Of a stretch of 64,000 nucleotides of DNA, positions 8,196 through 40,990 are shown in pieces. The stretch's first letter is position 1. Each line of letters opens with the position of its first letter. The position numbers were made by a program, and so were the translations under genes. Source of the DNA: Arenicola marina (taxonomy: Eukaryota > Annelida > Polychaeta > Arenicolidae); the NCBI GenBank assembly GCA_964019135.1, contig OZ025252.1, positions 47,342,959 to 47,406,958 of the forward strand, given 5' to 3'. The notes under the pieces are model-generated. The model was not told the origin of the DNA, made no database searches, and saw only the letters and a program-made list of their open reading frames with translations.

Positions 8196-9166
8196 TGGGC
8201 CAGGGGACCCCGGTGTTGGGCCAGAGGGCACCCGTGTGGGGCCAGAGGGCCCCGTGTGGGCAAGGCGGCCCCCGTGTTGGGCCAGGGGGCACCCGTGTGG
8301 GGCCAGAGGGCCCCGTGTGGGCAAGGCGGCCCCCGTGTTGGGCCAGGAGGCCCCCGTTTTGGGCCAGGAGGCCCCGTGTTGGGCCAGGAGGCCCCGTGTT
8401 GGGCCAGGAGGCCCCCGTGTTGGGCCAGGAGGCCCCCGTGTTGGGCCAGGAGGCCCCTGTGTTGGGCCAGGAGGCCCCCGTGTTGGGCCAGGAGGCCCCC
8501 GTGTTGGGTCAGGAGGCCCCCGTGTTGGGTCAGGAGGCCCCCGTTTTGGGCCAGGAGGCCCCCGTGTTGGGCCAGGAGGCCCCCGTGTTGGGCAAGGGGG
8601 CCCCCGTGTTGGGCCAGGAGGCCCCCGTGTTGGGCCAGGAGGCCCCCGTGTTGGGCCAGGAGGCCCCCGTGTTGGGCCAGGGGGCCCCTGTGTTGGCCCA
8701 GGAGGCCCCGTGTTGGGCAAGGGGGCCCCCGTGTTGGGCAAGGGGGCCCCCGTGTTGGGCCAGGAGGCCCCTGTGTTGGCCCAGGAGGCCCCGTGTTGGG
8801 CCAGAAGGCCCCCGTGTTGGGCCAGGAGGCGCCCGTGTTGGACCAGGAGGCCCCCGTGTTGGGCCAGGAGGCCCCCGTGTTGGGCCAGGAGGCCCCTGTG
8901 TTGGCCCAGGAGGCCCTGTGTTGGGCCAGGAGGCCCCCGTGTTGGCCCAGGAGGCCCCCGTGTTGGGCCAGGATGCCCCCGTGTTGGGCCAGGAGGCCCC
9001 CGTGTTGGGCCAGGAGGCCCCCGTGTTGGGCCAGGAGGCCCCTGTGTTGGGCCAGGGGGCCCCTGTGTTGGGCCAGGAGGCCCCTGTGTTGGGCCAGGAG
9101 GCCCCTGTGTTGGGCCAGGAGGCCCCCGTGTTGGGCCAGGAGGCCCCTGTGTTGGGCCAGGAGGCT
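8196..9166. repeat. 21-bp minisatellite, about 46 units, GC-rich
   Basis: The tandem 21-bp unit has core GTGTTGGGCCAGGAGGCCCC. Some units are 20 bp (one C fewer), and variants include GGGCAAGGGGG and GTTTTGGG. The first units are more diverged (GGGCACCCGTGTGGGG). Each unit carries complementary GGGCC and GGCCCC blocks and can fold into hairpins. As 21 is divisible by three, plus-strand open frames of 432, 404 and 365 codons (7-residue repeats such as GQEAPVL or GPGGPRV) and a collagen-like minus-strand frame all coexist. That coexistence argues that none is a real gene. Confidence 0.95.
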
Positions 9167-9722
9167 CCTGTCTCGCTGTCTGGTCTGGACGAGATCACCT
9201 GTCAGACGGGACCCAAGCCGTCAGGGGGGAGGGGCGGGGCCTTCCTCACGGGGTGCTGGAGAAGGGGTAGAGGAGTGGACGGGTGGCGAGGGGGAGGGGG
9301 CGATGCTGATATATACGGCATTGCGATTATTCTCAGTACAGAAAATGGGTCGCACCAAAAAACGCCATCCATCAGCTCAGTTGAACAAGACAGTTTTGTT
9401 TCATTTTAAACATGAAGTTCCTTACATGCAGTTTAAACACGTAAATTCCCCTCATGACGTTGAATGACCCCAAATTCACTCAGAAAGCTGCTCATAGCAT
9501 ATAGTATATATCTCAGAAGAATTAATTCACACCTCTAGTCGAAGCAATTGAAGTCATGGAATTTGGCTACGCAGTATTCTGTAGCGTTCCGTATGTTACA
9601 TTGGGTTTCATGGATGACTTCTAACTCATTGTAACATGTTCATGCAGTCCCGGCTCTCGATGGTAGACTCGCCAGTTGACAACCCACCTGGATACCTTTG
9701 TAACTGCGCTAATCAATTTGTA
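9167..9722. other. Unique spacer
   Basis: The first part is G-rich (about 9215-9300), and the rest is balanced to AT-rich. I see no supported gene. Open frames leaking from the 21-bp array end here. The right edge passes into the LINE fragment. Confidence 0.6.
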
Positions 9723-9953
9723 GTTAGTGACCGAGTTGTTGTGGAACCTAAGGAAATTACGGACGACCAGGCAACATTTTACCAGTTATTGTAAGCCAAT
9801 CCCGATATAGTAGTTCCTGACGTATCCGGGAATGTAGTAAGAGAAAATAAAATAAGCGCTTTAGATTCTGCTCACGAAAATAGTTGCGAGTGAATAGTTA
9901 CACTGGAGTGATGGAAAACGATAAGACGCCAGGCGGTGATGGTCTGTCGTTAA
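9723..9953 (+). mobile_element. L1/Tx1-like LINE fragment (start of the RT region)
   Basis: Translation from 9723 gives motifs in the order expected just upstream of and at the start of an L1/Tx1 reverse transcriptase: EPKEITDDQATFYQLL, then ANPDIVV, then ENSCE and IVTLE, then MENDKTPGGDGLSL from the ATG at 9911. In that family the last motif is the familiar M(K/E)NxK(T/S)PGxDGL. The reading frame is decayed, with in-frame stops at 9792-9794 and 9891-9893. There is also a frame change with loss of a few residues between IVTLE and MEND. The fragment does not continue into the rest of the RT. Instead it runs straight into the 32-bp tandem array, whose unit is made from these last codons. Family assignment is by eye. 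Confidence 0.8.
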
Positions 9954-12200
9954 TAAGACGCCAGGCGGTTATGGTCTGTCGTTAATAAGACGCCAGGCGG
10001 TGATGGTCTGTCGTTAACCAGACGCCAGGCGGTGATGGTCTGTCGTTAACCAGACGCCAGGCGGTGATGGTCTGTCGTTAATAAGACGCCAGGCGGTGAT
10101 GGTCTGTCGTTAATGAGACGCCAGGCGGTGATGGTCTGTCGTTAATAAGACGCCAGGCGGTGATGGTCTGTCGTTAACCAGACGCCAGGCGGTGATGGTC
10201 TGTCGTTAATAAGACGCCAGGCGGTGATGGTCTGTCGTTAATGAGACGCCAGGCGGTGATGGTCTGTCGTTAACCAGACGCCAGGCGGTGATGGTCTGTC
10301 GTTAATAAGACGCCAGGCGGTGATGGTCTGTCGTTAACCAGACGCCAGGCGGTGATGGTCTGTCGTTAATAAGACGCCAGGCGATGATGGTCTGTCGTTA
10401 ATAAGACGCCAGGCGGTGATGGTCTGTCGTTAATAAGACGCCAGGCGGTGATGGTCTGTCGTTGATAAGACGCCAGGCGGTGATGGTCTGTCGTTAACCA
10501 GACGCCAGGCGGTGATGGTCTGTCGTTAATGAGACGCCAGGCGGTGATGGTCTGTCGTTGATAAGACGCCAGGCGGTGATGGTCTGTCGTTAACCAGACG
10601 CCAGGCGGTGATGGTCTGTCGTTAATAAGACGCCAGGCGATGATGGTCTGTCGTTAATAAGACGCCAGGCGGTGATGGTCTGTCGTTAATAAGACGCCAG
10701 GCGGTGATGGTCTGTCGTTAACCAGACGCCAGGCGGTGATGGTCTGTCGTTAATAAGACGCCAGGCGATGATGGTCTGTCGTTAATAAGACGCCAGGCGG
10801 TGATGGTCTGTCGTTAATAAGACGCCAGGCGGTGATGGTCTGTCGTTGATAAGACGCCAGGCGGTGATGGTCTGTCGTTAACCAGACGCCAGGCGGTGAT
10901 GGTCTGTCGTTAATAAGACGCCAGGCGATGATGGTCTGTCGTTAATAAGACGCCAGGCGGTGATGGTCTGTCGTTAATAAGACGCCAGGCGGTGATGGTC
11001 TGTCGTTAATAAGACGCCAGGCGGTGATGGTCTGTCGTTAATAAGACGCCAGGCGGTGATGGTCTGTCGTTAATGAGACGCCAGGCGGTGATGGTCTGTC
11101 GTTAATAAGACGCCAGGCGGTGATGGTCTGTCGTTAATAAGACGCCAGGCGGTGATGGTCTGTCGTTAATGAGACGCCAGGCGGTGATGGTCTGTCGTTA
11201 ACCAGACGCCAGGCGGTGATGGTCTGTCGTTGATAAGACGCCAGGCGGTGATGGTCTGTCGTTAATAAGACGCCAGGCGGTGATGGTCTGTCGTTAACCA
11301 GACGCCAGGCGGTGATGGTCTGTCGTTAACCAGACGCCAGGCGGTGATGGTCTGTCGTTAATAAGACGCCAGGCGGTGATGGTCTGTCGTGAATAAGACG
11401 CCAGGCAGTGATGGTCTGTCGTTAACAAGACGCCAGGCGGTGATGGTCTGTCGTTAACCAGACGCCAGGCGGTGATGGTCGGTCGTTAATAAGACGCCAG
11501 GCGGTGATGGTCTGTCGTTAATAAGACGCCAGGCGGTGATGGTCTGTCGCTAATGAGACGCCAGGCGGTGATGGTCTGTCGTTAATAAGACGCCAGGCGG
11601 TGATGGTCTGTCGTTAATGAGACGCCAGGCGGTGATGGTCTGTCGTTAATAAGACGCCAGGCGGTGATGGTCTGTCGTTAATAAGACGCCAGGCGGTGAT
11701 GGTCTGTCGTTAACCAGACGCCAGGCGGTGATGGTCTGTCGTTAACCAGACGCCAGGCGGTGATGGTCGGTCGTTAATAAGACGCCAGGCGGTGATGGTC
11801 TGTCGTTAATAAGACGCCAGGCGGTGATGGTCTGTCGCTAATGAGACGCCAGGCGGTGATGGTCTGTCGTTAATAAGACGCCAGGCGGTGATGGTCTGTT
11901 GTTAATAAGACGCCAGGCGGTGATGGTCTGTCGCTAATGAGACGCCAGGCGGTGATGGTCTGTCGTTAATAAGACGCCAGGCGGTGATGGTCTGTCTTTA
12001 ATGAGACGCCAGGCGATGATGATCTGTCGTTAGCAAGACGCCAGGCAGTGATGATCTGTCGTTAACAAGACGCCAGGCGATGATGGTCTGTCGTTAACAA
12101 GACGCCAGGCAGTGATGGTCTGTCATTAATAAGACGCCAGGCGGTGATGGTCTGTCGTTAACAAGACGCCAGGCGGTGACGGTCTGTCGTTAATGAGACG
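9921..12200. repeat. 32-bp minisatellite derived from LINE RT codons, about 71 units
   Basis: The 32-bp unit has core GACGCCAGGCGGTGATGGTC, followed by a TGTCGTTA end. The first unit lies in frame with the LINE motif MENDKTPGGDGLSL, so the array is an amplified piece of that RT sequence. As 32 is not divisible by three, the coding sense is lost after one unit. Units differ mainly in the four bases after GTCGT, which read TAATAA, TAACCA, TAATGA or TGATAA in different combinations. The right edge (about 11990-12200) is more diverged, as expected for an array homogenised from the middle by unequal exchange. Confidence 0.96.
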
Positions 12201-12202
12201 AC

Positions 12203-12625
12203 AGGTCCATTGGCCCATTTCTCCCTTACAAATTACGTCTGACCGGTAAACACTTCAGGTCGGTCCATTGGTCCATATCTCCCTAAACCATTACATCTGA
12301 TCAGTAAACACTTCAGGTCGGTCCATTGGTCCATTTCTCCCTCACCCATTACATCTGACCATTAAACATTTCAGGTCGGTCCATTTCTCCCTCACCCATT
12401 ACGTTTGACCAATAAACACTTCAGGTCGGTCCATTTCTCCCTCACCCATTACATCTGATCAGTAAACACTTCAGGTCGGTCCATTTCTCCCTCACCCATT
12501 CCATCTGATCAGTAAACACTTCAGGTCGGTCCATTTCTCCCTCACCCATTACATCTGACCAGTAAACACTTCAGGTCGGTTCATTGGTCCATTTCTCCCT
12601 CATCCATTACGTCTGACCAATAAAC
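12203..12625. repeat. 50/58-bp tandem repeat, 8 units
   Basis: Eight units start at AGGTCGGTCC and end near TAAACACTTC. Five are about 50 bp. Others carry an additional 8-bp ATTGGTCC-type insert and are 58 bp. The array follows the 32-bp array with almost no spacer, yet its unit is unrelated. Units contain CCATTTCTCCCTCACCCATT. Divergence between units is greater than in the neighbouring array, so it is probably older or less active. Confidence 0.93.
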
Positions 12626-13448
12626 ACACGTGGTAACTGGAGCTTGGCGTGCTGCCGTGAAATGTTGGATGAAAGACGGCAAAAAGACGGCAAAAAGCGC
12701 CGCGGGGCAATATAGTTTCTGTTCACGTCTCCATGGAAGCGTCCAAGGATGTCTCAGGAGTCACGGATGTCATAGTTCCCCCCCCCACCACACCCCCACC
12801 CAGCATCCTCGCCCGCCACTGCACGCACCCACCCACCACGGCCGAATCCCGCCCATCCCCCGCCTCCCACCCGCGCCCGCCGCGGCACCCCCCCCTCAGC
12901 CGACATTCCATTTGTGCTTTTCCCGGAAGTCACTACTGATGTCGTATTAGCTTGGTAACAAACGCGCTTTGTACACGTGATAGATATATCACGGACAGGC
13001 TGGTTCCCCCGCCTCGCGTGAGGTACAAACAAAGACCTGCTGCCTCCAGGACACTTGCTAACAAGCTGGTTCCGTGTCCCTGTCAAGACGCATCATTGAA
13101 CACGAATAAGTTTTGCCTCCATATAGCTCGCTGTCATACAGTTTATATTAAGTATTATGTCCCAGATATTAGTACGTCGGCTTAGGTTAATGGTGGGGCG
13201 GTACGCTTACCATATGAAAGCCCGATTGGCATGTTTTCAGATGATCCTCTGACAAAATAGCATTATTTAAACCATTTTATGGTTTTTTTTGTGCTTCATC
13301 GAATACGACAAAAACATTGATTTTCTTTATGGATCCTAAACACGAAGACGGCAAGAAAAGTAGAAATAAAACAATTTTCCGGCACTTGGTTCAATTCCCA
13401 ACGGACGAAAAAAGAGCGGCTCAGAAAAGGGCTTTAGGAATCCCTCCG
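12626..13448. other. Unique spacer with a C-rich tract
   Basis: About 820 bp. A C-rich stretch at 12778-12900 creates several overlapping proline- or glycine-rich open frames on both strands, which I do not accept as genes. The sequence from 12950 to 13450 is balanced to AT-rich. The only frame with a plausible composition is the small one at 13329-13484, listed separately. Confidence 0.6.
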
Positions 13449-13484
13449 TCAAGTCCTCTGCATAAGGGTGACCGTACCAGGTGA
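13329..13484 (+). CDS. Small lysine-rich open frame (doubtful)
   Basis: ATG at 13329 opens 51 codons starting MDPKHEDGKKSRNKTIF and ending at TGA 13482-13484. It is rich in charged residues and includes FPTDEKRAAQKRAL. A GT dinucleotide in CAG|GTGACC at 13480/13481 could be a splice donor. I do not recognise the sequence. Its last third, from 13451 on, lies in the segment duplicated at 14518, where it is joined to a LINE fragment instead. It could be a real first exon, but a chance frame is equally possible. Confidence 0.15.
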   Translation: MDPKHEDGKKSRNKTIFRHLVQFPTDEKRAAQKRALGIPPSSPLHKGDRTR

Positions 13485-13492
13485 CCGTATTG

Positions 13493-14400
13493 GGTGACAT
13501 CTGCAGCCGTAGATGGTGGGTGCCACATCACTCTGGACGCCCGGGGTCCAGGTTCTGCAGCCGTAGATGGTGGGTACCACATCACTGCGGACGCCCGAGG
13601 TCCGGGTTTTGCAGCCGTAGATGGTGGGTTCTAAATAACCCTGGACGCCCGAGGTCCGGGTTCTGCAGCCGTAGATGGTGGGTTCTACATCACCCTGGAC
13701 ACCCGAGGTCCGGGTTCTGCAGTGGTAGATGGTGTGTGCCACATCACTGTGGACGCCCGAGGTCCGGGTTCTGCAGCCATAGATGGTGTGTGCCACATCA
13801 CTGTGGACGCCCGAGGTCCGGGTTCTGCAGCCGTAGATGGTGGGTTTTACATCACCCTGGACGTCCGAGGTCCGTGTTCTGCACCCGTAGATGGTGGGTT
13901 CTACATCACCCTGGACGTCCGAGGTCCGTGTTCTGCACCCGTAGATGGGGGGTTTCTACATCACCCTGGACGTCCGAGGTCCCGTGTTCTGCACCCGTAG
14001 ATGGTGGGTGCTACATCACCCTGGACGTCCGCGGTCCGGGTTCTGCAGCCGTAGATAGTGGGTGCCACATCACTGCGGACGCCCGGGGTCCGGGTTCTGC
14101 AGCCGTAGATGGTGGGTTCTAGATAACCCTGGACGCCCGAGGTCCGGGTTCTGCAGCCGTAGATGGTGGGTTCTACATCACCCTGGACGTCCGAGGTCCG
14201 TGTTCTGCACCCGTAGATGGTGGGTTCTACATCACCCTGAACGTCCGAGATCCGGGTTCTGCAGCTGCCGTAGATGGTGGGTGCTACATCACCCTGGACG
14301 TCCGCGGTCCTGGTTCTGCAGCCGTAGATAGTGGGTTCTACATTACTCTGGACGCCCGAGGTCCGGGTTCTGCAGCCGTAGATGGTGGGTTCTACATTAC
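13493..14400. repeat. 54-bp minisatellite, first block, about 17 units
   Basis: The 54-bp tandem unit has core GCAGCCGTAGATGGTGGGT. Variants are many: CACATCACTG versus TACATCACCC, GACGCCCG versus GACGTCCG, and GTTCTGCACCC. A few units are 1-4 bp longer or shorter. As 54 equals 18 codons, both strands hold long open frames with an 18-residue repeat. I do not consider these coding, because the variants change residues freely. The block ends against a LINE fragment at 14396. Confidence 0.95.
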
Positions 14401-14511
14401 TAGTCCCACACCTTAACTATTGTATTGTTGCGTGGGGATATCAATATGACAGGCGACATAAATTACAACAGAAAGCTATACGTTTAATAACGAGAAGTAG
14501 ATACCATGTCA
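14396..14511 (+). mobile_element. Jockey/CR1-type LINE fragment, duplicated short copy
   Basis: Translation reads LVPHLNYCIVAWGYQYD followed by KLQQKAIRLITRSRYH. This is the conserved block after the RT catalytic core in Jockey/CR1-group LINEs, where PHLNYCxxxWG is typical. It is cut off at about 14511 and joined to the sequence at 14518, which repeats the left flank of the 54-bp array. It is therefore one end of a tandem duplication whose other copy is the longer fragment starting at 15791. In this copy the frame is uninterrupted over its short length. Confidence 0.85.
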
Positions 14512-14517
14512 AGATCC

Positions 14518-15897
14518 GTCAAGTCCTCTGCATAAGGGTGACCGTACCAGGTGACCGTATTGGGTGACATCTGCAGCCGTAGATGGTGGGTGCCACATCA
14601 CTCTGGACGCCCGGGGTCCGGGTTCTGCAGCCGTAGATGGTGGGTGCCACATCACTGCGGACGCCCGGGGTCCGGGTTCTGCAGCCGTAGATGGTGGGTT
14701 CTAGATCACCCTGGACGCCCGAGGTCCGGGTTCTGCAGCCGTAGATGGTGTGTGCCACATCACTGTGGACGCCCGAGGTCCGGGTTCTGCAGCCATAGAT
14801 GGTGTGTGCCACATCACTGTGGACACCCGAGGTCCGGGTTCTGCAGCCGTAGATGGTGGGTTTTACATCACCCTGGACGTCCGAGGTCCGTGTTCTGCAC
14901 CCGTAGATGGTGGGTTCTACATCACCCTGGACGTCCGAGGTCCGTGTTCTGCACCCGTAGATGGTGGGTGCTACATCACCCTGGACGTCCGCGGTCCGGG
15001 TTCTGCAGCCGTAGATGGTGGGTTCTACATCACCCTGAACGTCCGAGATCCGGGTTCTGCAGCGGCCGTAGATGGTGGGTGCTACATCACCCTGGACGTC
15101 CGCGGTCCGGGTTCTGCAGCCGTAGATGGTGGGTTCTACATTACTCTGGACGCCCGAGGTCCGGGTTCTGCAGCCGTAGATGGTGGGTTTTACGTCACCC
15201 TGGATGTCCGAGGTCCGGGTTCTGCAGCCGTAGATAGTGGGTTCTACATTACTCTGGACGCCCGAGGTCCGGGTTCTGCAGCCGTAGATGGTGGGTTTTA
15301 CGTCACCCTGGACGTCCGAGGTCCGGGTTCTGCAGCCGTAGATGGTGGGTGCTACATCACCCTGGACGTCCGCGGTCCGGGTTCTGCAGCCGTAGATGGT
15401 GGGTTCTACATTACTCTGGACGTCCGAGGTCCGGGTTCTGCAGCCGTAGATAGTGGGTTCTACATTACTCTGGACGCCCGAGGTCCGGGTTCTGCAGCCG
15501 TAGATGGTGGGTTTTACGTCACCCTGGACGTCCGTGGTCCGGGATCTGCAGCCGTAGATGGTGGGTTCTACGTCACCCTGGACGCCCGAGGTCCGGGTTC
15601 TGCAGCCATTGATGGTGTGTGCCACATCACTGTGGACGCCCGAGGTCCGGGTTCTGCAGCCGTAGATGGTGGGTGCCACATCACTGCGGACGCCCGAGAT
15701 CCGGGTTCTGCAGCGGCCGTAGATGGTGGGTTCTACGTCACCCTGGACGTCCGAGGTCCGGGTTCTGCAGCCGTAGATGGTGGGTTCTACATTACTGGTC
15801 CCACACCTTAACTATTGTATTGTTGCGTGGGGATATCAATATGAAAGGCGACATAAATTACAACAGAAAGCTCTACGTTAAAAACGAGAAGTAGATA
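14518..15897 (+). repeat. Tandem duplication, copy 2
   Basis: This is the second copy of the 13451-14517 segment. It is about 310 bp longer, mostly because its 54-bp array has about six more units. After the shared end (TAGATACCATG), this copy continues into genuine LINE sequence. Copy 2 therefore retains the original right junction and copy 1 the original left junction. Confidence 0.88.
14562..15792. repeat. 54-bp minisatellite, second block, about 23 units
   Basis: Same unit as the block at 13493-14400. It gives a 353-codon plus-strand frame (14750-15811) with repeat AVDGGFYITLDVRGPGSA and a 386-codon minus-strand frame (14519-15679). Both are open because the unit is 18 codons long. Units TTTTACGTCACCC and TTCTACATTACTC alternate in the middle (15180-15500), which indicates a two-unit higher-order period there. 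Confidence 0.95.
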
Positions 15898-16294
15898 CCA
15901 TGCGCATACAGACCCCTTATGTAAGCAGCTTCGGTTATTGAAGCTTCCTGATATTCGCAGGTTACACATGTTAAAATTATATCACAAATTTGAACATGGT
16001 GGGCTCCCGTCTTACTTTTCGAACGTGATATTCCATCGCACTGAAGATGTTCATAGATACAATACCAGCCACTAGCAATGTTACACACCAACAGACACTA
16101 TCACGACTTTGCAACCAAATGTATTAGATATAGTATCACCAAGCTAGTTAATACTGAGCCATCCAACGTCATTTAGAGAATTCACACGCAATCTTACTGG
16201 TTTTGCTTCCTATGTTAAGACACATATTTCGTCGAGCTATGGTATAACATGTCCAAAACCGAACTGCTATTTATGTCAATTGGGTAAGAAGTAA
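15791..16294 (+). mobile_element. Jockey/CR1-type LINE, C-terminal end of the RT ORF
   Basis: The reading frame starts LVPHLNYCIVAWGYQYE and continues with HAHTDPLCKQLRLLKL, PDIRRLHMLKLYHKFEHGG and LPSYFSNVIFHRTEDVHRYN, ending with PKPNCYLCQLGKK and TAA at 16292-16294. This order, including the closing Cys-rich motif, is the standard C-terminus of Jockey/CR1-group ORF2 proteins. It is decayed. There is a one-base loss in the KALR region relative to the 14396 copy, and there are in-frame stops after NTSH and after VSPS. Everything upstream of the motif has been replaced by the 54-bp array. A 3' untranslated part may continue beyond 16294, but its end is not clear. Confidence 0.88.
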
Positions 16295-17330
16295 ATTGTG
16301 ATTGTGAATTAACTGGTTATCTCAGGGATTTTGTTAACCTCGTTTTATAATTAGTTTTTAATGATGTACCGAAGCCAATTGTTGTGTTAAGGTTTCTGAT
16401 GTGATCGCGTGATACATACACTGATGCCCTTCAAGTTCTGTGCTTTCGAATCGGGTTCCCTTTCCTTAAAAAATTGTGTGACGTCACGCCTTTGTCTTAA
16501 GTGTTCATTATCTAGAAGAATGCATCGAAAAAAGACCTAGCCGTGTTTTATTAACGTAAGTGTGCGTTACTCAAATAAAGAACGACAAAACAGTGCATTG
16601 TTTTAATAATGAACGGAAAAACTGTGCATTACCTTGATAATGAACAGTTGTTGTTAATATTGACTCCGCTAAGTATCACGGTGTAATCAACCGAGTCGAG
16701 CTGAGCTGAGCGGAGGCGAGCTGGCTGATGTTGTCAGAACTAGCCAATTTCAAGACAAACAATGTTAAGCTCCAAGGGGGCGGGGATGAGATCAAAATAT
16801 ATTGACATTTGACAGGTATCGATTGCATATATTTATCATGCCGTCAATAAATGGGGGACTGTCTGACAGGTGCCGGATCAATATTACAAAAGACACGACA
16901 TATATGGATGATTTATTTTAAAGCAGAAATGTTAGATCCCTCATATCGCTTTTCAGGAGGCGATGTTTTCAGGAAAGTTAGACGTAATGACATGATCCGT
17001 GTGTGGTGATTTAGAAAACAAAACTTCCAAAATTTCTACTTCCTCCACCCCTTCCCACCCCTACCCTCCCCCCTGGGGCTTCACAATGACGGACCGCTGT
17101 TTCCATAATATTCGCTCACGTATTAGTCGGGCAGTGCAATTAATACAATAGTCAATTTCCTGCGTCCAAACATGAGCAAATTTAATGCCGTGTTATAACA
17201 ATGTTATAAGTATGTTAAAGACCTCGCTGTCGTGCATTCCCCAAATAAACTACTCGACGCTATCGCGTCTCGTGCTTTATTTGGGCGCATGCACTCCAGC
17301 TCGTTCTTTAACTAGCACATACCATAGAAA
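16295..17330. other. Unique AT-rich spacer
   Basis: No gene is supported here. It may begin with the 3' untranslated part of the LINE. A local near-repeat occurs at about 16575-16640 (AACAGTGCATTG, then AACTGTGCATTA). A short purine/pyrimidine-rich tract lies near 17040-17075. A 10-bp perfect inverted repeat is listed at 17240-17285. Confidence 0.6.
17240..17285. repeat. Short inverted repeat
   Basis: CCCAAATAAA (17240-17249) and its exact reverse complement TTTATTTGGG (17276-17285) flank a 26-bp GC-rich loop. The pair could form a hairpin. Its role is unknown and it may be chance. Confidence 0.4.
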
Positions 17331-17732
17331 CAAGGTCTCCCAAAAGACGGCAAACAGAGGAAACTATTAAAAAACTGGGGACTCATCTCGTTATTAAACG
17401 ATCATTATAAGGTTTTATCCGGAGCTATCGCCGCTGGGCTAAAAACGGTATTGAGTAGAATAATTAGTCAGGATCAAAAAGGGTTTTTGAAGGGTAGATA
17501 TATCAGAAAGAACATTAGATTCACGAAGCGTCGTGTTACTATGAACGAAACTTACGACATAAGACCTTCCACTGAAAGTATTTCTTATTTAACTTCCTGT
17601 CAACCCATCGCGGTGGGCATTCTGTTTTCCATCTTGTTGTGCATGGTCGGGGACGCCATATACAATGTACAGACCCGTGGCAACCAAGCCTCTGTCTTTA
17701 CCATGTTCTTTCTCCATCATTGGTACAAATAA
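17331..17732 (+). mobile_element. L1/Tx1-like LINE fragment (RT finger region)
   Basis: The frame from 17331 reads GLPKDGKQRKLLKNWG, then ISLLNDHYKVLSGAIAAGLK, then SQDQKGFLKGRYIRKNIR. It matches the L1/Tx1 pattern (I)PKxGK...LxNWRPISLLNxDYK(I/V)L...I...QxGFxxGRxIxxNI(R/L), which is RT blocks 1 and 2. The conserved part ends near 17517. The frame then stays open to the stop at 17730-17732 with sequence I cannot align to the family, so the LINE is broken there. The same family type occurs at 9723, whose motif normally lies some 70 residues upstream of this one. The two could be pieces of one insertion or separate copies. Confidence 0.82.
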
Positions 17733-24637: not shown

Positions 24638-26589
24638 AATGATGACATGTGGACATGTGGACATGCGGAGTAGGGGGGCACGACTGTTGGCGGGGTTGGA
24701 ATACAGACAGCGATAGTGAAGGTCTCACACACCATACCCACCAGGCCTTGTGGCCCAATGGCCCCCGTACGGTCCTAGAGTTATATTATCACCTACGAGA
24801 CAATTTCATCCAACGGCGAGGTCAGCGGAACTAAGTAACTGATGCATGAATGTGAGGTCTCTGTTTGTCATGCTTCAATGCGAGAAGGCGACAAATGATA
24901 CTTGAACAAAATTAGTCTGAACCACAGACGATACGGTACAAAAGCTTTCCCTGTCTCAGGACATTATTGGCCTGTGAAATTAATAACGATGGACTGCCTT
25001 CACCGAGGTCCAGGCCCCAGTCGCCGTGACTCAGGGTTAGCCCACTAGGTGGCGCGCCCTGTTGTCTGATTGCCGGAGCTGACCTTTCTTCCCTACCTTT
25101 CAAAATAGCGTATTTTACAAGCGCGTATTTAGTGTTTTAAAGCGATATCCATTAACCTCCAACCGAAAAAATAAATACATAAAAAGGCGCCCACGTGACC
25201 ATCCACGTGTTTTTAAGAACGATTTGCTGTGGTTGGTGTGCCACAGCGTGACCTTCAATAACACACGTCGACGGCCAGGCGGGCGGCCGACTGCGCGTGG
25301 TCCGGCATACGGCGGTCGCCACACTACTTATGAGGATAGCAAATATGCAATAGGCCCAAATCAAATAGCAGTTAATCATTGCAGCGCTTAACACCCGTGG
25401 GCGATATTTCGATAAATCGAACAGTTTTTACCGACTGCACGGGGAAAGTTACGTGCAATTCCGATAAGTTGCAGCTCGCTCCCTGGTTTTCCCGCGCGAC
25501 GCAAATTGTCGTCTGCTCAGACTATCGTCTGCTGTCTCCCGCGTTTGCTGTTCTTTACCATTCATATAAGAACAGCCCAAAGAACAAAGCCGAGCAATTG
25601 GCAGTGAAGTTTTATGAATAATCTTCGTGAATATTTATTCATTGAAATGATGTTTTCTGCGCCTGGTGCAAGGATACAAAGAGTGAATACTTCATTTTGA
25701 TCGAGACGAACGTCGTCTGCAGTTGAGTTTTCCTGCTGCAGAAAACTGTAAGTCTAGCGACAAGGGAGTCATAGCTGCATTAGAAGCTTCGTGTACCAAT
25801 GACATCAATTATCATAAATATGCATAAATTGCGTGAGGCGTTCCGTTCATACGAGTGTGAACTGCTGAATCAGAAACATGTATTGACATCGCACAGTTGA
25901 ATATTTTACGTCACTCTGTCTGAGCTATGTGTTGGTTTATAACCTCGTAATGCCTACGTATAGATAGCATTCAAGAGACCGCAATAGAACCAGTTTTGCT
26001 CATGGGTAGCCGTGTTTTCCCGTCAATGGCTGCAGCTGCCTGCTGTGACCATGGAGGCCTGGGTGTCTACACTACGGGCGTCCGTCCGTTCTGTCTGTAT
26101 GTGGGCTGATCTGAACCACTGCAGTTCACTGCGCACGCTCAGCCAATTGAACTGTCAGGGTCGTAACGGCGCTAGTCGCTTTAGGTCAAGGTTGTCAGTC
26201 GGTCTGTGCTAAGGTTTACTACTCTCAAATATTTAGCTTGACATTGTTTCCATGGTAACAGTCACTCTTGTTGAAGAGCGTGAACGTGATATTTACTTGC
26301 GCGGCCAGGCTGCCGGTGTAGTAACGACGTTCCCAACGTGCCGTACAGCTGGGTTAATTACCAGGACTTACCATGATCATAGGGATCAAATCCTGCGCAA
26401 GATTGGCCTTAAAGCTTACCCTAGATGCTGGGCAACTATTGCTGGGCAAGGTATTTGCAACACAACTTTGATGTCCCCAAGTTAATAGCCACGTCGAATT
26501 AGTACATCGAAGTCGACTCAGAATCAGCAACGTAACGATCTCACTGACCGGTGGCAAGTGGTCACGCCAGGTGCTTTAGGGGAAGGACA
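24638..26589. other. Unique spacer, about 1.95 kb
   Basis: Balanced to AT-rich single-copy DNA. A short hairpin (AGTTTTC, 8-bp loop, GAAAACT) lies near 25727-25749. Small frames at 25379-25621, 26012-26212 and 26252-26485 show no domain I recognise. No splice-site pattern stands out. Confidence 0.55.
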
Positions 26590-31371: not shown

Positions 31372-32989
31372 GCATGGTGGGGCTACAGCGTGGGTCACAC
31401 GGGTCACTCATGGTGGGGCTACAGCGTGGGTCACACGGGTCACTCATGGTGGGGCTACAGCGTGGGTCACACGGGTCACTCATGGTGGGGCTACAGCGTG
31501 GGTCACACGGGTCACTCATGGTGGGGCTACAGCGTGGGTCACACGGGTCACTCACTGGAGGGGCTACAGCGTGGGTCACACGGGTCACTCACTGGAGGGG
31601 CTACAGCGTGGGTCACACGGGTCACTCACTGGAGGGGCTACAGCGTGGGTCACACGGGTCACTCATGGTGGGGCTACAGCGTGGGTCACACGGGTCACTC
31701 ATGGTGGGGCTACAGCGTGGGTCACACGGGTCACTCATGGTGGGGCTACAGCGTGGGTCACACGGGTCACTCATGGTGGGGCTACAGCGTGGGTCACACG
31801 GGTCACTCACTGGAGGGGCTACAGCGTGGGTCACACGGGTCACTCATGGTGGGGCTACAGCGTGGGTCACACGGGTCACTCATGGTGGGGCTACAGCGTG
31901 GGTCACACGGGTCACTCATGGTGGGGCTACAGCGTGGGTCACACGGGTCACTCATGGTGGGGCTACAGCGTGGGTCACACGGGTCACTCATGGTGGGGCT
32001 ACAGCGTGGGTCACACGGGTCACTCATGGTGGGGCTACAGCGTGGGTCACACGGGTCACTCACTGGAGGGGCTACAGCGTGGGTCACACGGGTCACTCAT
32101 GGTGGGGCTACAGCGTGGGTCACACGGGTCACTCATGGTGGGGCTACAGCGTGGGTCACACGGGTCACTCATGGTGGGGCTACAGCGTGGGTCACACGGG
32201 TCACTCATGGTGGGGCTACAGCGTGGGTCACACGGGTCACTCACTGGAGGGGCTACAGCGTGGGTCACACGGGTCACTCACTGGAGGGGCTACAGCGTGG
32301 GTCACACGGGTCACTCACTGGAGGGGCTACAGCGTGGGTCACACGGGTCACTCATGGTGGGGCTACAGCGTGGGTCACACGGGTCACTCATGGTGGGGCT
32401 ACAGCGTGGGTCACACGGGTCACTCATGGTGGGGCTACAGCGTGGGTCACACGGGTCACTCATGGTGGGGCTACAGCGTGGGTCACACGGGTCACTCACT
32501 GGAGGGGCTACAGCGTGGGTCACACGGGTCACTCATGGTGGGGCTACAGCGTGGGTCACACGGGTCACTCATGGTGGGGCTACAGCGTGGGTCACACGGG
32601 TCACTCATGGTGGGGCTACAGCGTGGGTCACACGGGTCACTCATGGTGGGGCTACAGCGTGGGTCACACGGGTCACTCATGGTGGGGCTACAGCGTGGGT
32701 CACACGGGTCACTCATGGTGGGGCTACAGCGTGGGTCACACGGGTCACTCACTGGAGGGGCTACAGCGTGGGTCACACGGGTCACTCATGGTGGGGCTAC
32801 AGCGTGGGTCACACGGGTCACTCATGGTGGGGCTACAGCGTGGGTCACACGGGTCACTCATGGTGGGGCTACAGCGTGGGTCACACGGGTCACTCATGGT
32901 GGGGCTACAGCGTGGGTCACACGGGTCACTCATGGTGGGGCTACAGCGTGGGTCACACGGGTCACTCATGGTGGGGCTACAGCGTGGGT

Positions 32990-34586
32990 AACACGGGTCA
33001 CTCACTGGAGGGGCTACAGCGTGGGTCACACGGGTCACTCACTGGAGGGGCTACAGCGTGGGTCACACGGGTCACTCACTGGAGGGGCTACAGCGTGGGT
33101 CACACGGGTCACTCACTGGAGGGGCTACAGCGTGGGTCACACGGGTCACTCATGGTGGGGCTACAGCGTGGGTCACACGGGTCACTCACTGGAGGGGCTA
33201 CAGCGTGGGTCACACGGGTCACTCATGGTGGGGCTACAGCGTGGGTCACACGGGTCACTCATGGTGGGGCTACAGCGTGGGTCACACGGGTCAGTCATGG
33301 TGGGGCTACAGCGTGGGTCACACGGGTCACTCATGGTGGGGCTACAGCGTGGGTCACACGGGTCACTCACTGGAGGGGCTACAGCGTGGGTCACACGGGT
33401 CACTCATGGTGGGGCTACAGCGTGGGTCACACGGGTCACTCATGGTGGGGCTACAGCGTGGGTCACACGGGTCACTCATGGTGGGGCTACAGCGTGGGTC
33501 ACACGGGTCACTCATGGTGGGGCTACAGCGTGGGTCACACGGGTCACTCATGGTGGGGCTACAGCGTGGGTCACACGGGTCACTCACTGGAGGTGCTACA
33601 GCGTGGGTCACACGGGTCACTCATGGTGGGGCTACAGCGTGGGTCACACGGGTCACTCATGGTGGGGCTACAGCGTGGGTCACACGGGTCACTCATGGTG
33701 GGGCTACAGCGTGGGTCACACGGGTCACTCACTGGAGGGGCTACAGCGTGGGTCACACGGGTCACTCATGGTGGGGCTACAGCGTGGGTCACACGGGTCA
33801 CTCATGGTGGGGCTACAGCGTGGGTCACACGGGTCACTCATGGTGGGGCTACAGCGTGGGTCACACGGGTCACTCACTGGAGGGGCTACAGCGTGGGTCA
33901 CACGGGTCACTCACTGGAGGGGCTACAGCGTGGGTCACACGGGTCACTCACTGGAGGGGCTACAGCGTGGGTCACACGGGTCACTCATGGTGGGGCTACA
34001 GCGTGGGTCACACGGGTCACTCATGGTGGGGCTACAGCGTGGGTCACACGGGTCACTCATGGTGGGGCTACAGCGTGGGTCACACGGGTCACTCATGGTG
34101 GGGCTACAGCGTGGGTCACACGGGTCACTCACTGGAGGGGCTACAGCGTGGGTCACACGGGTCACTCATGGTGGGGCTACAGCGTGGGTCACACGGGTCA
34201 CTCATGGTGGGGCTACAGCGTGGGTCACACGGGTCACTCATGGTGGGGCTACAGCGTGGGTCACACGGGTCACTCATGGTGGGGCTACAGCGTGGGTCAC
34301 ACGGGTCACTCATGGTGGGGCTACAGCGTGGGTCACACGGGTCACTCATGGTGGGGCTACAGCGTGGGTCACACGGGTCACTCACTGGAGGGGCTACAGC
34401 GTGGGTCACACGGGTCACTCATGGTGGGGCTACAGCGTGGGTCACACGGGTCACTCATGGTGGGGCTACAGCGTGGGTCACACGGGTCACTCATGGTGGG
34501 GCTACAGCGTGGGTCACACGGGTCACTCATGGTGGGGCTACAGCGTGGGTCACACGGGTCACTCATGGTGGGGCTACAGCGTGGGT
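32990..34586. repeat. Higher-order block X, copy 1 (1597 bp)
   Basis: It begins at the GGGTAACACG variant (32989). It carries CAGTCATGG at about 33291 and GGAGGTGCT at about 33591. Length 1597 = 31 x 36 + 13 x 37, so 44 whole units. Confidence 0.88.
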
Positions 34587-35096
34587 AACACGGGTCACTC
34601 ACTGGAGGGGCTACAGCGTGGGTCACACGGGTCACTCACTGGAGGGGCTACAGCGTGGGTCACACGGGTCACTCACTGGAGGGGCTACAGCGTGGGTCAC
34701 ACGGGTCACTCACTGGAGGGGCTACAGCGTGGGTCACACGGGTCACTCATGGTGGGGCTACAGCGTGGGTCACACGGGTCACTCACTGGAGGGGCTACAG
34801 CGTGGGTCACACGGGTCACTCATGGTGGGGCTACAGCGTGGGTCACACGGGTCACTCATGGTGGGGCTACAGCGTGGGTCACACGGGTCAGTCATGGTGG
34901 GGCTACAGCGTGGGTCACACGGGTCACTCATGGTGGGGCTACAGCGTGGGTCACACGGGTCACTCACTGGAGGGGCTACAGCGTGGGTCACACGGGTCAC
35001 TCATGGTGGGGCTACAGCGTGGGTCACACGGGTCACTCATGGTGGGGCTACAGCGTGGGTCACACGGGTCACTCATGGTGGGGCTACAGCGTGGGT
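34587..35096. repeat. Higher-order block Y (510 bp), a prefix of X
   Basis: It starts at the next GGGTAACACG (34586) and repeats the first part of X, including CAGTCATGG at about 34888 (offset 1597). Then it stops early at another GGGTAACACG (35096). 510 = 8 x 36 + 6 x 37, so 14 whole units. Confidence 0.88.
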
Positions 35097-36693
35097 AACA
35101 CGGGTCACTCACTGGAGGGGCTACAGCGTGGGTCACACGGGTCACTCACTGGAGGGGCTACAGCGTGGGTCACACGGGTCACTCACTGGAGGGGCTACAG
35201 CGTGGGTCACACGGGTCACTCACTGGAGGGGCTACAGCGTGGGTCACACGGGTCACTCATGGTGGGGCTACAGCGTGGGTCACACGGGTCACTCACTGGA
35301 GGGGCTACAGCGTGGGTCACACGGGTCACTCATGGTGGGGCTACAGCGTGGGTCACACGGGTCACTCATGGTGGGGCTACAGCGTGGGTCACACGGGTCA
35401 GTCATGGTGGGGCTACAGCGTGGGTCACACGGGTCACTCATGGTGGGGCTACAGCGTGGGTCACACGGGTCACTCACTGGAGGGGCTACAGCGTGGGTCA
35501 CACGGGTCACTCATGGTGGGGCTACAGCGTGGGTCACACGGGTCACTCATGGTGGGGCTACAGCGTGGGTCACACGGGTCACTCATGGTGGGGCTACAGC
35601 GTGGGTCACACGGGTCACTCATGGTGGGGCTACAGCGTGGGTCACACGGGTCACTCATGGTGGGGCTACAGCGTGGGTCACACGGGTCACTCACTGGAGG
35701 TGCTACAGCGTGGGTCACACGGGTCACTCATGGTGGGGCTACAGCGTGGGTCACACGGGTCACTCATGGTGGGGCTACAGCGTGGGTCACACGGGTCACT
35801 CATGGTGGGGCTACAGCGTGGGTCACACGGGTCACTCACTGGAGGGGCTACAGCGTGGGTCACACGGGTCACTCATGGTGGGGCTACAGCGTGGGTCACA
35901 CGGGTCACTCATGGTGGGGCTACAGCGTGGGTCACACGGGTCACTCATGGTGGGGCTACAGCGTGGGTCACACGGGTCACTCACTGGAGGGGCTACAGCG
36001 TGGGTCACACGGGTCACTCACTGGAGGGGCTACAGCGTGGGTCACACGGGTCACTCACTGGAGGGGCTACAGCGTGGGTCACACGGGTCACTCATGGTGG
36101 GGCTACAGCGTGGGTCACACGGGTCACTCATGGTGGGGCTACAGCGTGGGTCACACGGGTCACTCATGGTGGGGCTACAGCGTGGGTCACACGGGTCACT
36201 CATGGTGGGGCTACAGCGTGGGTCACACGGGTCACTCACTGGAGGGGCTACAGCGTGGGTCACACGGGTCACTCATGGTGGGGCTACAGCGTGGGTCACA
36301 CGGGTCACTCATGGTGGGGCTACAGCGTGGGTCACACGGGTCACTCATGGTGGGGCTACAGCGTGGGTCACACGGGTCACTCATGGTGGGGCTACAGCGT
36401 GGGTCACACGGGTCACTCATGGTGGGGCTACAGCGTGGGTCACACGGGTCACTCATGGTGGGGCTACAGCGTGGGTCACACGGGTCACTCACTGGAGGGG
36501 CTACAGCGTGGGTCACACGGGTCACTCATGGTGGGGCTACAGCGTGGGTCACACGGGTCACTCATGGTGGGGCTACAGCGTGGGTCACACGGGTCACTCA
36601 TGGTGGGGCTACAGCGTGGGTCACACGGGTCACTCATGGTGGGGCTACAGCGTGGGTCACACGGGTCACTCATGGTGGGGCTACAGCGTGGGT
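35097..36693. repeat. Higher-order block X, copy 2 (1597 bp)
   Basis: All markers recur at an offset of 2107 bp from copy 1 (CAGTCATGG about 35398, GGAGGTGCT about 35698). 2107 = 1597 + 510. By eye I see no difference between the two X copies at the marker positions compared. Confidence 0.88.
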
Positions 36694-37310
36694 AACACGG
36701 GTCACTCACTGGAGGGGCTACAGCGTGGGTCACACGGGTCACTCACTGGAGGGGCTACAGCGTGGGTCACACGGGTCACTCACTGGAGGGGCTACAGCGT
36801 GGGTCACACGGGTCACTCACTGGAGGGGCTACAGCGTGGGTCACACGGGTCACTCATGGTGGGGCTACAGCGTGGGTCACACGGGTCACTCACTGGAGGG
36901 GCTACAGCGTGGGTCACACGGGTCACTCATGGTGGGGCTACAGCGTGGGTCACACGGGTCACTCATGGTGGGGCTACAGCGTGGGTCACACGGGTCAGTC
37001 ATGGTGGGGCTACAGCGTGGGTCACACGGGTCACTCATGGTGGGGCTACAGCGTGGGTCACACGGGTCACTCACTGGAGGGGCTACAGCGTGGGTCACAC
37101 GGGTCACTCATGGTGGGGCTACAGCGTGGGTCACACGGGTCACTCATGGTGGGGCTACAGCGTGGGTCACACGGGTCACTCATGGTGGGGCTACAGCGTG
37201 GGTCACACGGGTCACTCATGGTGGGGCTACAGCGTGGGTCACACGGGTCACTCATGGTGGGGCTACAGCGTGGGTCACACGGGTCACTCACTGGAGGTGC
37301 TACAGCGTGG
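36694..37310. repeat. Higher-order block X, partial third copy
   Basis: It starts at GGGTAACACG (36693) with CAGTCATGG at about 36995 and GGAGGTGCT at about 37296. The pattern breaks just after the one-base loss near 37318. Confidence 0.83.
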
Positions 37311-39712
37311 GTCACACGGTCACTCATGGTGGGGCTACAGCGTGGGTCACACGGGTCACTCATGGTGGGGCTACAGCGTGGGTCACACGGGTCACTCATG
37401 GTGGGGCTACAGCGTGGGTCACACGGGTCACTCACTGGAGGGGCTACAGCGTGGGTCACACGGGTCACTCATGGTGGGGCTACAGCCTGGGTCACACGGG
37501 TCACTCACTGGAGGGGCTACAACGTGGGTCACACGGGTCACTCACTGGAGGGGCTACAGCGTGGGTCACACGGGTCACTCATGGTGGGGCTACAGCGTGG
37601 GTCACACGGGTCACTCACTGGAGGGGCTACAGCGTGGGTCACACGGGTCACTCACTGGAGGGGCTACAGCGTGGGTCACACGGGTCACTCATGGTGGGGC
37701 TACAGCGTGGGTCACACGGGTCACTCACTGGAGGGGCTACAGCGTGGGTCACACGGGTCACTCATGGTGGGGCTACAGCGTGGGTCACACGGGTCACTCA
37801 TGGTGGGGCTACAGCGTGGGTCACACGGGTCACTCATGGTGGGGCTACAGCGTGGGTCACACGGGTCACTCACTGGAGGGGCTACAGCGTGGGTCACACG
37901 GGTCACTCATGGTGGGGCTACAGCGTGGGTCACACGGGTCACTCACTGGAGGGGCTACAGCGTGGGTCACACGGGTCACTCACTGGAGGGGCTACAGCGT
38001 GGGTCACACGGGTTACTCATGGTTGGGCTAAAGCGTGGGTCACACGGGTCAGTCACTGGAGGGGCTACAGCGTGGGTCACACGGGTCACTCATGGTGGGG
38101 CTACAGCGTGGGTCACACGGGTCACTCATGGTGGGGCTACAGCGTGGGTCACACGGGTCACTCATGGTGGGGCTACAGCGTGGGTCACACGGGTCACTCA
38201 CTGGAGGGGCTACAGCGTGGGTCACACGGGTCACTCACTGGAGGGGCTACAGCGTGGGTCACACGGGTCACTCACTGGAGGGGCTACAGCGTAGGTCACA
38301 CGGGTCACTCATGGTGGGGCTACAGCGTGGGTCACACGGGTCACTCATGGTGGGGCTACAGCGTGGGTCACACGGGTCACTCATGGTGGGGCTACAGCGT
38401 GGGTCACACGGGTCACTCACTGGAGGGGCTACAGCGTGGGTCACACGGGTCACTCATGGTGGGGCTACAGCGTGGGTCACACGGGTCACTCATGGTGGGG
38501 CTACAGCGTGGGTCACACGGGTCACTCATGGTGGGGCTACAGCGTGGGTCACACGGGTCACTCATGGTGGGGCTACAGCGTGGGTCACACGGGTCACTCA
38601 CTGGAGGGGCTACAGCGTGGGTCACACGGGTCACTCATGGTGGGGCTACAGCGTGGGTCACACGGGTCACTCACTGGAGGGGCTACAGCGTGGGTCACAC
38701 GGGTCACTCACTGGAGTGGCTACAGCGTGGGTCACACGGGTCACTCATGGTGGGGCTACAGCGTGGGTCACACGGGTCACTCACTGGAGGGGCTACAGCG
38801 TGGGTCACACGGGTCACTCACTGGAGGGGCTACAGCGTGGGTCACACGGGTCACTCATGGTGGGGCTACAGCGTGGGTCACACGGGTCACTCACTGGAGG
38901 GGCTACAGCGTGGGTCACACGGGTCACTCACTGGAGGGGCTACAGCGTGGGTCACACGGGTCACTCATGGTGGGGCTACAGCGTGGGTCACACGGGTCAC
39001 TCACTGGAGGGGCTACAGCGTGGGTCACACGGGTCACTCACTGGAGGGGCTACAGCGTGGGTCACACGGGTCACTCATGGTGGGGCTACAGCGTGGGTCA
39101 CACGGGTCACTCACTGGAGGGGCTACAGCGTGGGTCACACGGGTCACTCACTGGAGGGGCTACAGCGTGGGTCACACGGGTCACTCACTGGAGGGGCTAC
39201 AGCGTGGGTCACACGGGTCACTCATGGTGGGGCTACAGCGTGGGTCACACGGGTCACTCACTGGAGGGGCTACAGCGTGGGTCACACGGGTCACTCACTG
39301 GAGGGGCTACAGCGTGGGTCACACGGGTCACTCACTGGAGGGGCTACAGCGTGGGTCACACGGGTCACTCACTGGAGGGGCTACAGCGTGGGTCACACGG
39401 GTCACTCACTGGAGGGGCTACAGCGTGGGTCACACGGGTCACTCATGGTGGGGCTACAGCGTGGGTCACACGGGTCACTCATGGTGGGGCTACAGCGTGG
39501 GTCACACGGGTCACTCACTGGAGGGGCTACAGCGTGGGTCACACGGGTCACTCACTGGAGGGGCTACAGCGTGGGTCACACGGGTCACTCACTGGAGGGG
39601 CTACAGCGTGGGTCACACGGGTCACTCACTGGAGGGGCTACAGCGTGGGTCACACGGGTCACTCATGGTGGGGCTACAGCGTGGGTCACACGGGTCACTC
39701 ATGGTGGGGCAG

Positions 39713-40094: not shown

Positions 40095-40990
40095 TTTATT
40101 GGTAACTTCAGGCACCAGGCCCCTCGTACAAATACAGAACACAAAAAATAACATGCAACCGACTAGAACAAACTTAGTTAATTAGAGAGAATTAGGCTAA
40201 ACCTTTTTTCATACATAGTGAATGCTTTTTGTATAAACCTTGCTAATGAGATTAAACCTGTTTTTTCCTCGGAAGTCATAATACATAAAAAACTCCTAAT
40301 ATCATATGTCGTTAAATATCTGGTAGGAAAATAATTATTGCGGGGATTGTCATACAATGGGCATTTCATTAAAATATGGAACTCGTCAAGAGAAGAAATA
40401 GTTTCATGTTGTAAGCAATATTTACAGATAGAGTTTTCTCCCCTGCAGTACGAACTGGTCCATAGCACCCTACATCTGAATCTGGCTAAGATCTGCCGTA
40501 GTCTAAAATCCTCGAGAAGACACAAGTATGGTTCGCGTATGAGCAACTTCTTATATTCTTTACAATTAATCAAGTCTGTCTAACTCTGCCAGTTCTGGTA
40601 AGCGCAGTCAATTACCCTTTTGGAAAATTGTTCAATAAAGGCCTCAGGATCTCCAAGTTGTTGCTGAAACGAGGCATAGCCGAATCCATAAGAGAAAAGT
40701 AAGTGCTTGAGTTTAGAAACCCAGGTGATACGACCAGCCTCTGTCAGCCTAAATAACATATTGTACGTACATTTCGTAAGTCTGGTTTCAGGCATCCTTA
40801 ACAATTTCACCCAGTATTTAACACAACTAATTGTACACCTTACCCTTAAAGGTAATCTACCGCACTCACCATAAACCGCTGAATTTGGTGTACTCCATGG
40901 TACGCCCAAGACATATTTACAAAATTTCGAAATGTTCATATGTAACACATTTGGGGAGGAAGGGCTCAGTTGGAAAGGCATTACTTTCAT
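40066..40990 (-). mobile_element. LINE 3' end, minus strand, with a (GATA)n tail
   Basis: On the minus strand, 40990 to 40178 is one frame with a single in-frame TAG at 40580-40582. It reads SKFCKYVLGVPWSTPNSAVY, then GECGRLPLRVRCTISCVKYW, and later CKYCLQHETISS with DEFHILMKCPLYDNPRNN. This is the conserved C-terminal part of the ORF2 protein seen in many invertebrate LINEs, with FCKxxLGV and a Cys/His knuckle ending in CPLY. After the stop come about 80 bp of 3' untranslated sequence, AATAAA (plus-strand TTTATT at 40095-40100) and a GATA repeat tail (40066-40094). The element is truncated at its 5' end near 41000. I cannot decide between the I/Nimb and L1/Tx1-like groups. No target-site duplication is evident. 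Confidence 0.86.

Follow-up and report, generated by a model that had tools for sequence, protein, structure and literature searches.

A 32-bp minisatellite of Arenicola marina most likely derived from codons of a decayed L1-type LINE ORF2

Introduction

Arrays derived from transposable elements, LINE ORF2 included, are already published. For the human genome, the excerpted text of PMC3389668 gives at least 7,276 repeats, 23% of minisatellites and satellites, as derived from transposable elements. Satellites derived from LINE ORF2 are PROsat in Phodopus, Pvc 20 in Phoca and HinfI, from CR1, in chicken, as named in the excerpt of PMC9659126. The model of Haber and Louis, as summarized in the part of PMC6947457 available, has a minisatellite born by slippage or unequal exchange between flanking repeats of 5–10 bp. 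The array described here, from the lugworm Arenicola marina, is a further example; no report of it was seen among the papers listed in a literature search, which says little. A first-pass annotation of the same DNA had proposed that the 32-bp unit came from LINE codons still visible at its edge and had called such a visible source rare. The latter looks overstated, given the human share of at least 23% in the excerpted text of PMC3389668.

Materials and methods

The window, that is the whole stretch of DNA analysed, comprises 64,000 nucleotides of contig OZ025252.1 (assembly GCA_964019135.1), and all positions refer to it. Tandem arrays were chosen from TRF output. Genome contigs were scanned with a peptide based on the second LINE piece of the window (at 17.3 kb). 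The scan returned five loci: L001, L003, L002 (two mussel-symbiont assemblies), L004 (a Flavobacteriaceae MAG) and one chance match. The last, L005, appears to lie on a true Pirellulales contig; it was rejected as a LINE relative and omitted from the profiles, and was still included in the five-locus tblastn database. Open L1-type frames span 1269 (L001), 1208 (L003) and 1013 (L004) residues, those of L003 and L004 running off the contig, and L002 is a broken LINE copy. A search of the three genomes with LINE loci gave 30 matches, and in the order of genome G001 matches were obtained in two of 83 genomes, both found before.

The comparison LINEs come from symbiont assemblies of other species, apparently as contamination, and are not same-species copies; L001–L004 apparently represent host or other eukaryotic contamination. 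One symbiont assembly, which holds L001, L003 and the G001 loci, contains many long open LINE frames of animal type, an accidental LINE panel. Because a four-sequence profile matched LINE-1 ORF2p in the PDB far better (E 2e-69) than R2 (1.4e-26 at best), the relatives are L1-type.

The short profile comprised nine sequences over the stretch preceding the reverse-transcriptase core. Nine sequences passed the cut; L002 and L014, which do not cover the region, were removed, and their places were taken by L024 and the first half of L011, whose second half joined a later version. Lower-scoring LINE types (L021–L023 and L025–L035) stayed outside. The full-length profile comprised seven sequences. 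The region 9738–9952 was chosen for testing because of the finding itself.

Results

The 32-bp array

The window contains a minisatellite at 9921–12205 on the plus strand, a single array in which units some tens of bases long follow one another head to tail. TRF reports a period of 32, 71.4 copies of the consensus ATAAGACGCCAGGCGGTGATGGTCTGTCGTTA, 94% matches and 0% indels. The count of about 71 units from 9921 given in the first-pass annotation agrees with this, and its end at 12200 is corrected to 12205. Cut every 32 bases, the array keeps a single register throughout 71 full units, with mismatches to the consensus at 72 of 2272 positions. Twenty unit types occur, and the consensus itself accounts for 27 of the 71 units. 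The left edge of the periodicity is sharp, as all six bases to the left of 9921 differ from those 32 bp further on. The reading frame is indeed lost after one unit, as had been noted, but not for good: since 32 × 3 = 96, KTPGGDG reappears in every plus frame, spaced by multiples of 96 bp. A coding role for the array is unlikely because the unit length is not divisible by three and stops occur at regular intervals in the plus frames.

The last six full units (12001–12192, plus strand), farthest from the LINE, carry 2.33 changes each compared with 1.01 overall, a value reached by 146 of 100000 random six-unit choices. Without unit positions 2–3, which are the most variable, the corresponding values are 1.5 and 0.38 (17 of 100000), with 0.08 for the first twelve units; both the six-unit set and the excluded positions were picked after inspection of the table. 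The distal end of the array looks older and the LINE-proximal end homogeneous, and for this reason unit 1 may itself have been homogenized. Units 49–52 are the same as units 58–61, and a seven-unit pattern at unit 13 is seen again at unit 25 (observed without a chance control), a pattern to be expected if several units at a time were exchanged or converted.

At the right junction (12193–12215, plus strand) a partial unit runs to CAGG and a different array, of 50/100-bp units, starts at 12215. Microhomology at this junction is only suggested, since CAGG is one of six 4-mers common to the 32-bp and 50/100-bp units. The 3' continuation of the LINE is absent right beside the array. The earlier statement that no LINE lies to the right is therefore correct directly beside the array and fails further on, where an L1-type piece lies on the same strand at 17328–17522.

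Codons across the left edge

An ATG at 9911 opens the reading of MENDKTPGGDGLSL, which continues through 9952 on the plus strand, exactly where a LINE motif had been placed. M, E and N are encoded in the flank, D lies across the edge at 9921 and the remainder lies in unit 1; MEND, outside the unit, thus reads in frame into it. This segment corresponds to model positions 106–120 of the short profile (hmmsearch, frame +2). KSPGxDG stands at the place encoded by the unit in all nine aligned L1-type relatives.

Upstream, 9738–9910 (plus strand; hmmsearch frame +0, model positions 45–100) was identified with the help of shuffle tests as a decayed remnant of an L1-type ORF2, from just before the reverse-transcriptase core. 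The likeness of 9738–9905 to the matching part of ORF2 is weak, with two in-frame stops and one frame change. The motifs EPKEITDDQATFYQLL, ENSCE and IVTLE, which had been listed as recognizable here, can be read in the frame that starts at 9723 but are not intact, stops following QLL, ENSCE and IVTLE; this frame differs from that of MENDK. By eye, NCCDKEISIEE in the second half of L011 aligns with NSCE-stop-IVTLE-stop in the window. Between the equivalents of IVTLE and MEND the relatives have 7 or 8 codons and the window just 2 nt (alignments, by eye), so about 22 nt are missing just before 9911, a break that the first-pass annotation did not mention. The fragment stops before the RVT_1 core, contains no reverse-transcriptase core and gave no family in a Pfam search. 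It is a remnant of an L1-type ORF2 gene, not a gene. A direct repeat of 5–10 bp beside the founder motif is not visible on the left flank, and the right flank is lost.

Comparison with LINE ORF2

Ten pieces of the window (60 frames) were compared with the short profile, and the top two frames were the two frames of 9165–9990, in collinear order. Frame +0 scored 3.4 bits (E 0.22) and frame +2 scored 4.9 bits (E 0.074), neither being significant alone. The joined peptide scored 16.2 bits (E 2.6e-5 for 61 sequences), or 16.8 bits with the later profile. Among 1000 dinucleotide shuffles, 872 gave any match, the best values being 5.1, 3.4 and 3.3; the score of the motif frame was reached by 1 of 1000 and that of the upstream frame by 2 of 1000. 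A frameshift-aware alignment scored 23.1 compared with a shuffle mean of 13.6 (s.d. 1.5) and was exceeded by one shuffle in 1000 (24.2); seven other pieces, on both strands, gave at most 18.2. With tblastn, the whole fragment matched L001 at E 9e-5 in the five-locus database.

The two parts were also scored separately. With the second half of L011 in the short profile, the upstream part alone was equalled by 5 of 5000 shuffles (from 9501) and 3 of 5000 (from 9681); with the earlier short profile the figure was 12 of 5000. The unit alone was the best of 11 array units in the short-profile comparison, where six of the 11 gave any match; among 3000 letter-shuffled units, 3 scored as high. When the full-length profile of seven sequences was used, the 13-residue motif was all that aligned. 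Under this profile 236 of 5000 shuffles equalled the upstream part by itself, and the unit alone tied with a 36-bp unit at 26583 and was reached by 108 of 3000 shuffled units. When the motif was held fixed and the flank shuffled, the score was equalled by 164 and 179 of 5000 shuffles, or 185 and 96 of 5000 with the later profile (2–4%); a large share of the signal therefore comes from the motif, to which the flank lends moderate support.

Several searches gave negative results. A blastx search at E ≤ 1 against a panel of 31 ORFs did not list the 9738–9952 fragment, although the 17.3-kb and 40-kb pieces were found. The PDB gave no LINE match for the fragment, the sole match being the unrelated protein A (E 0.033). 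Protein scans of viral contigs gave no confirmed relative, a scan of them for the unit at 30 of 32 bases gave no match, and phages and plasmids gave no match. Rfam at gathering scores and ARAGORN returned no matches.

In most tests the motif and the flank match L1-type ORF2 better than the controls do, at moderate strength, as expected of a tandem repeat whose unit derives from a transposable element. Judged from sequence comparison, support for a LINE origin is moderate, the fragment being short and decayed and several tests standing at 2–5%. Because the flank and unit 1 match L1-type ORF2 collinearly and above shuffles, and because KSPGxDG is found in nine of nine relatives, the unit is most likely LINE-derived. 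The match of the translated flank to L1 LINE proteins, which the first-pass annotation had offered as a check, is borne out as a weak likeness. As to the source and the class of mechanism, that annotation was very probably correct; its account of the LINE, which is decayed and partly deleted, was incomplete.

Other elements in the window

The window has a eukaryotic appearance. Twelve tandem arrays selected from the TRF output cover 46 383 of the 64 000 bases. The L1-type reverse-transcriptase piece at 17328–17522 (plus strand) represents a later, separate segment of ORF2 and matches L003 (blastx E 1.8e-15, 43%). Against RVT_1 it scored 20.4 bits, under the cut-off of 29.6, and a PDB search gave 0.62 at best (Cas1) and 0.69 for LINE-1 ORF2p. 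It and 9738–9952 could be halves of one LINE copy, being on the same strand and in the right order; the region 16300–17330, between the LINE pieces, scored at chance level.

At 13448–15904 there are two tandem copies of a block that consists of a 54-bp array, the flank on its left and the beginning of a second LINE-like piece (LVPHLNYCIVAWGYQY); both 54-bp arrays run directly into the LINE-like piece. The flanks of the two copies align in 52 of 54 columns and the LINE-like pieces in 115 of 123. We take this piece to be CR1/L2-like; Pfam gave no family for it. On the minus strand, 40181–40927 encodes the C-terminal portion of a further LINE protein (E 5e-23 to L021), which includes a CxxC...H...C finger and is interrupted by a single stop. 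An array of 51-bp units, also read with period 153, occupies about 21 kb (42962–63914) and reaches nearly to the end of the window. At 31373–39710 there is an 8.3-kb array of 36-bp units with two stops per plus frame and open stretches of up to 1773 residues; the scarcity of stops probably reflects the divisibility of 36 by three, and no gene is claimed.

Discussion

We consider it likely that the array arose by local duplication of 32 bp in a dead L1-type LINE copy, followed by expansion to about 71 units. The starting point would have been a dead, partly deleted copy. A tandem duplication over the codons KTPGGDGLSL may then have occurred, through slippage in replication, unequal exchange or break repair. 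Growth to about 71 units would have proceeded by unequal exchange or gene conversion, as we infer from the constant period and from the blocks of several units that recur. To the right of the array, the LINE would have lost its downstream half, perhaps on joining the neighbouring 50-bp array.

If instead the unit merely happened to spell KTPGGDGLS in one frame, the LINE-like look of an unrelated flank would be accidental. The motif is short, blastx, Pfam and the PDB gave no match, and both the motif-fixed test and the full-length profile left the fragment within reach of a few per cent of shuffles. Against this, two signals that each occur in about 1–2 of 1000 shuffles are on the same strand, ordered and adjoining, and the upstream part by itself is equalled by only 3–5 of 5000; MEND, from outside the unit, continues in frame into it, and an L1-type piece is present elsewhere in the window. 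Coincidence is thus an improbable explanation. That the array existed beforehand and a LINE, not its source, joined it later is very improbable: the LINE codons lie inside the unit, unbroken from the flank, and the nine aligned relatives have these codons within their own protein. In its favour, other arrays in the window adjoin LINE-like pieces, near 14397 and 15792, and unit 1 could have been homogenized to the array consensus.

Birth inside an active LINE, with the array spreading as the element moved, would predict arrays at this place in other copies. Arrays that live in LTR elements and later expand are described in the excerpted text of PMC7004042. A 32-bp repeat would, however, disrupt the ORF, and at ten motif sites in other species a second near-copy of the first 20 bases was found within 300 bp in none; the sites were picked by motif pattern, so that presence of the motif in all ten carries no weight. 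Two of the ten sites, those of L001 and L002, look alike across the 48 bases compared. Downstream of the motif, nine of the ten sites reach E-F or D-F two residues past the S position, where the window enters unit 2 instead; L019 and L024 also reach E-F or D-F, with other residues between, and all ten sites show one of these pairs. We regard this reading as extremely unlikely. It is also highly doubtful that arrays nucleate repeatedly at the conserved K-[ST]-P-G-x-D-G codons of LINE ORF2, with many copies in the genome starting one there, perhaps seeded by ATAAG. ATAAG is common to the codon pairs D-K and Y-K, which are 39 nt apart in the relatives; an exact ATAAG at the second place was seen by eye in one of ten sites (L012), and a loss of 7 nt would be needed to arrive at 32.

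Local duplication within a dead LINE copy leaves the known picture of array birth unchanged. What the edge of this array seems to keep is the place where the unit was once single and, if confirmed in same-species copies, it would give the founding duplication and the growth direction of one minisatellite.

The array resembles the human minisatellites and satellites derived from transposable elements in that the unit is part of an element; the excerpted text of PMC3389668 describes initiation and slow expansion, with growth usually polar. The human examples given there are Alu and LTR12, whereas the Arenicola marina array of about 71 copies most likely comes from a LINE coding stretch. As in the model of Haber and Louis, a once-single motif turns into a tandem unit; that model, in the part of PMC6947457 available, requires a short flanking repeat, whereas here none is seen on the left and the right side is lost. 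PROsat, Pvc 20 and HinfI likewise have LINE ORF2 in their source, but in the excerpt of PMC9659126 they are satellite families, whereas 9921–12205 is one array with the edge of its source apparently still attached.
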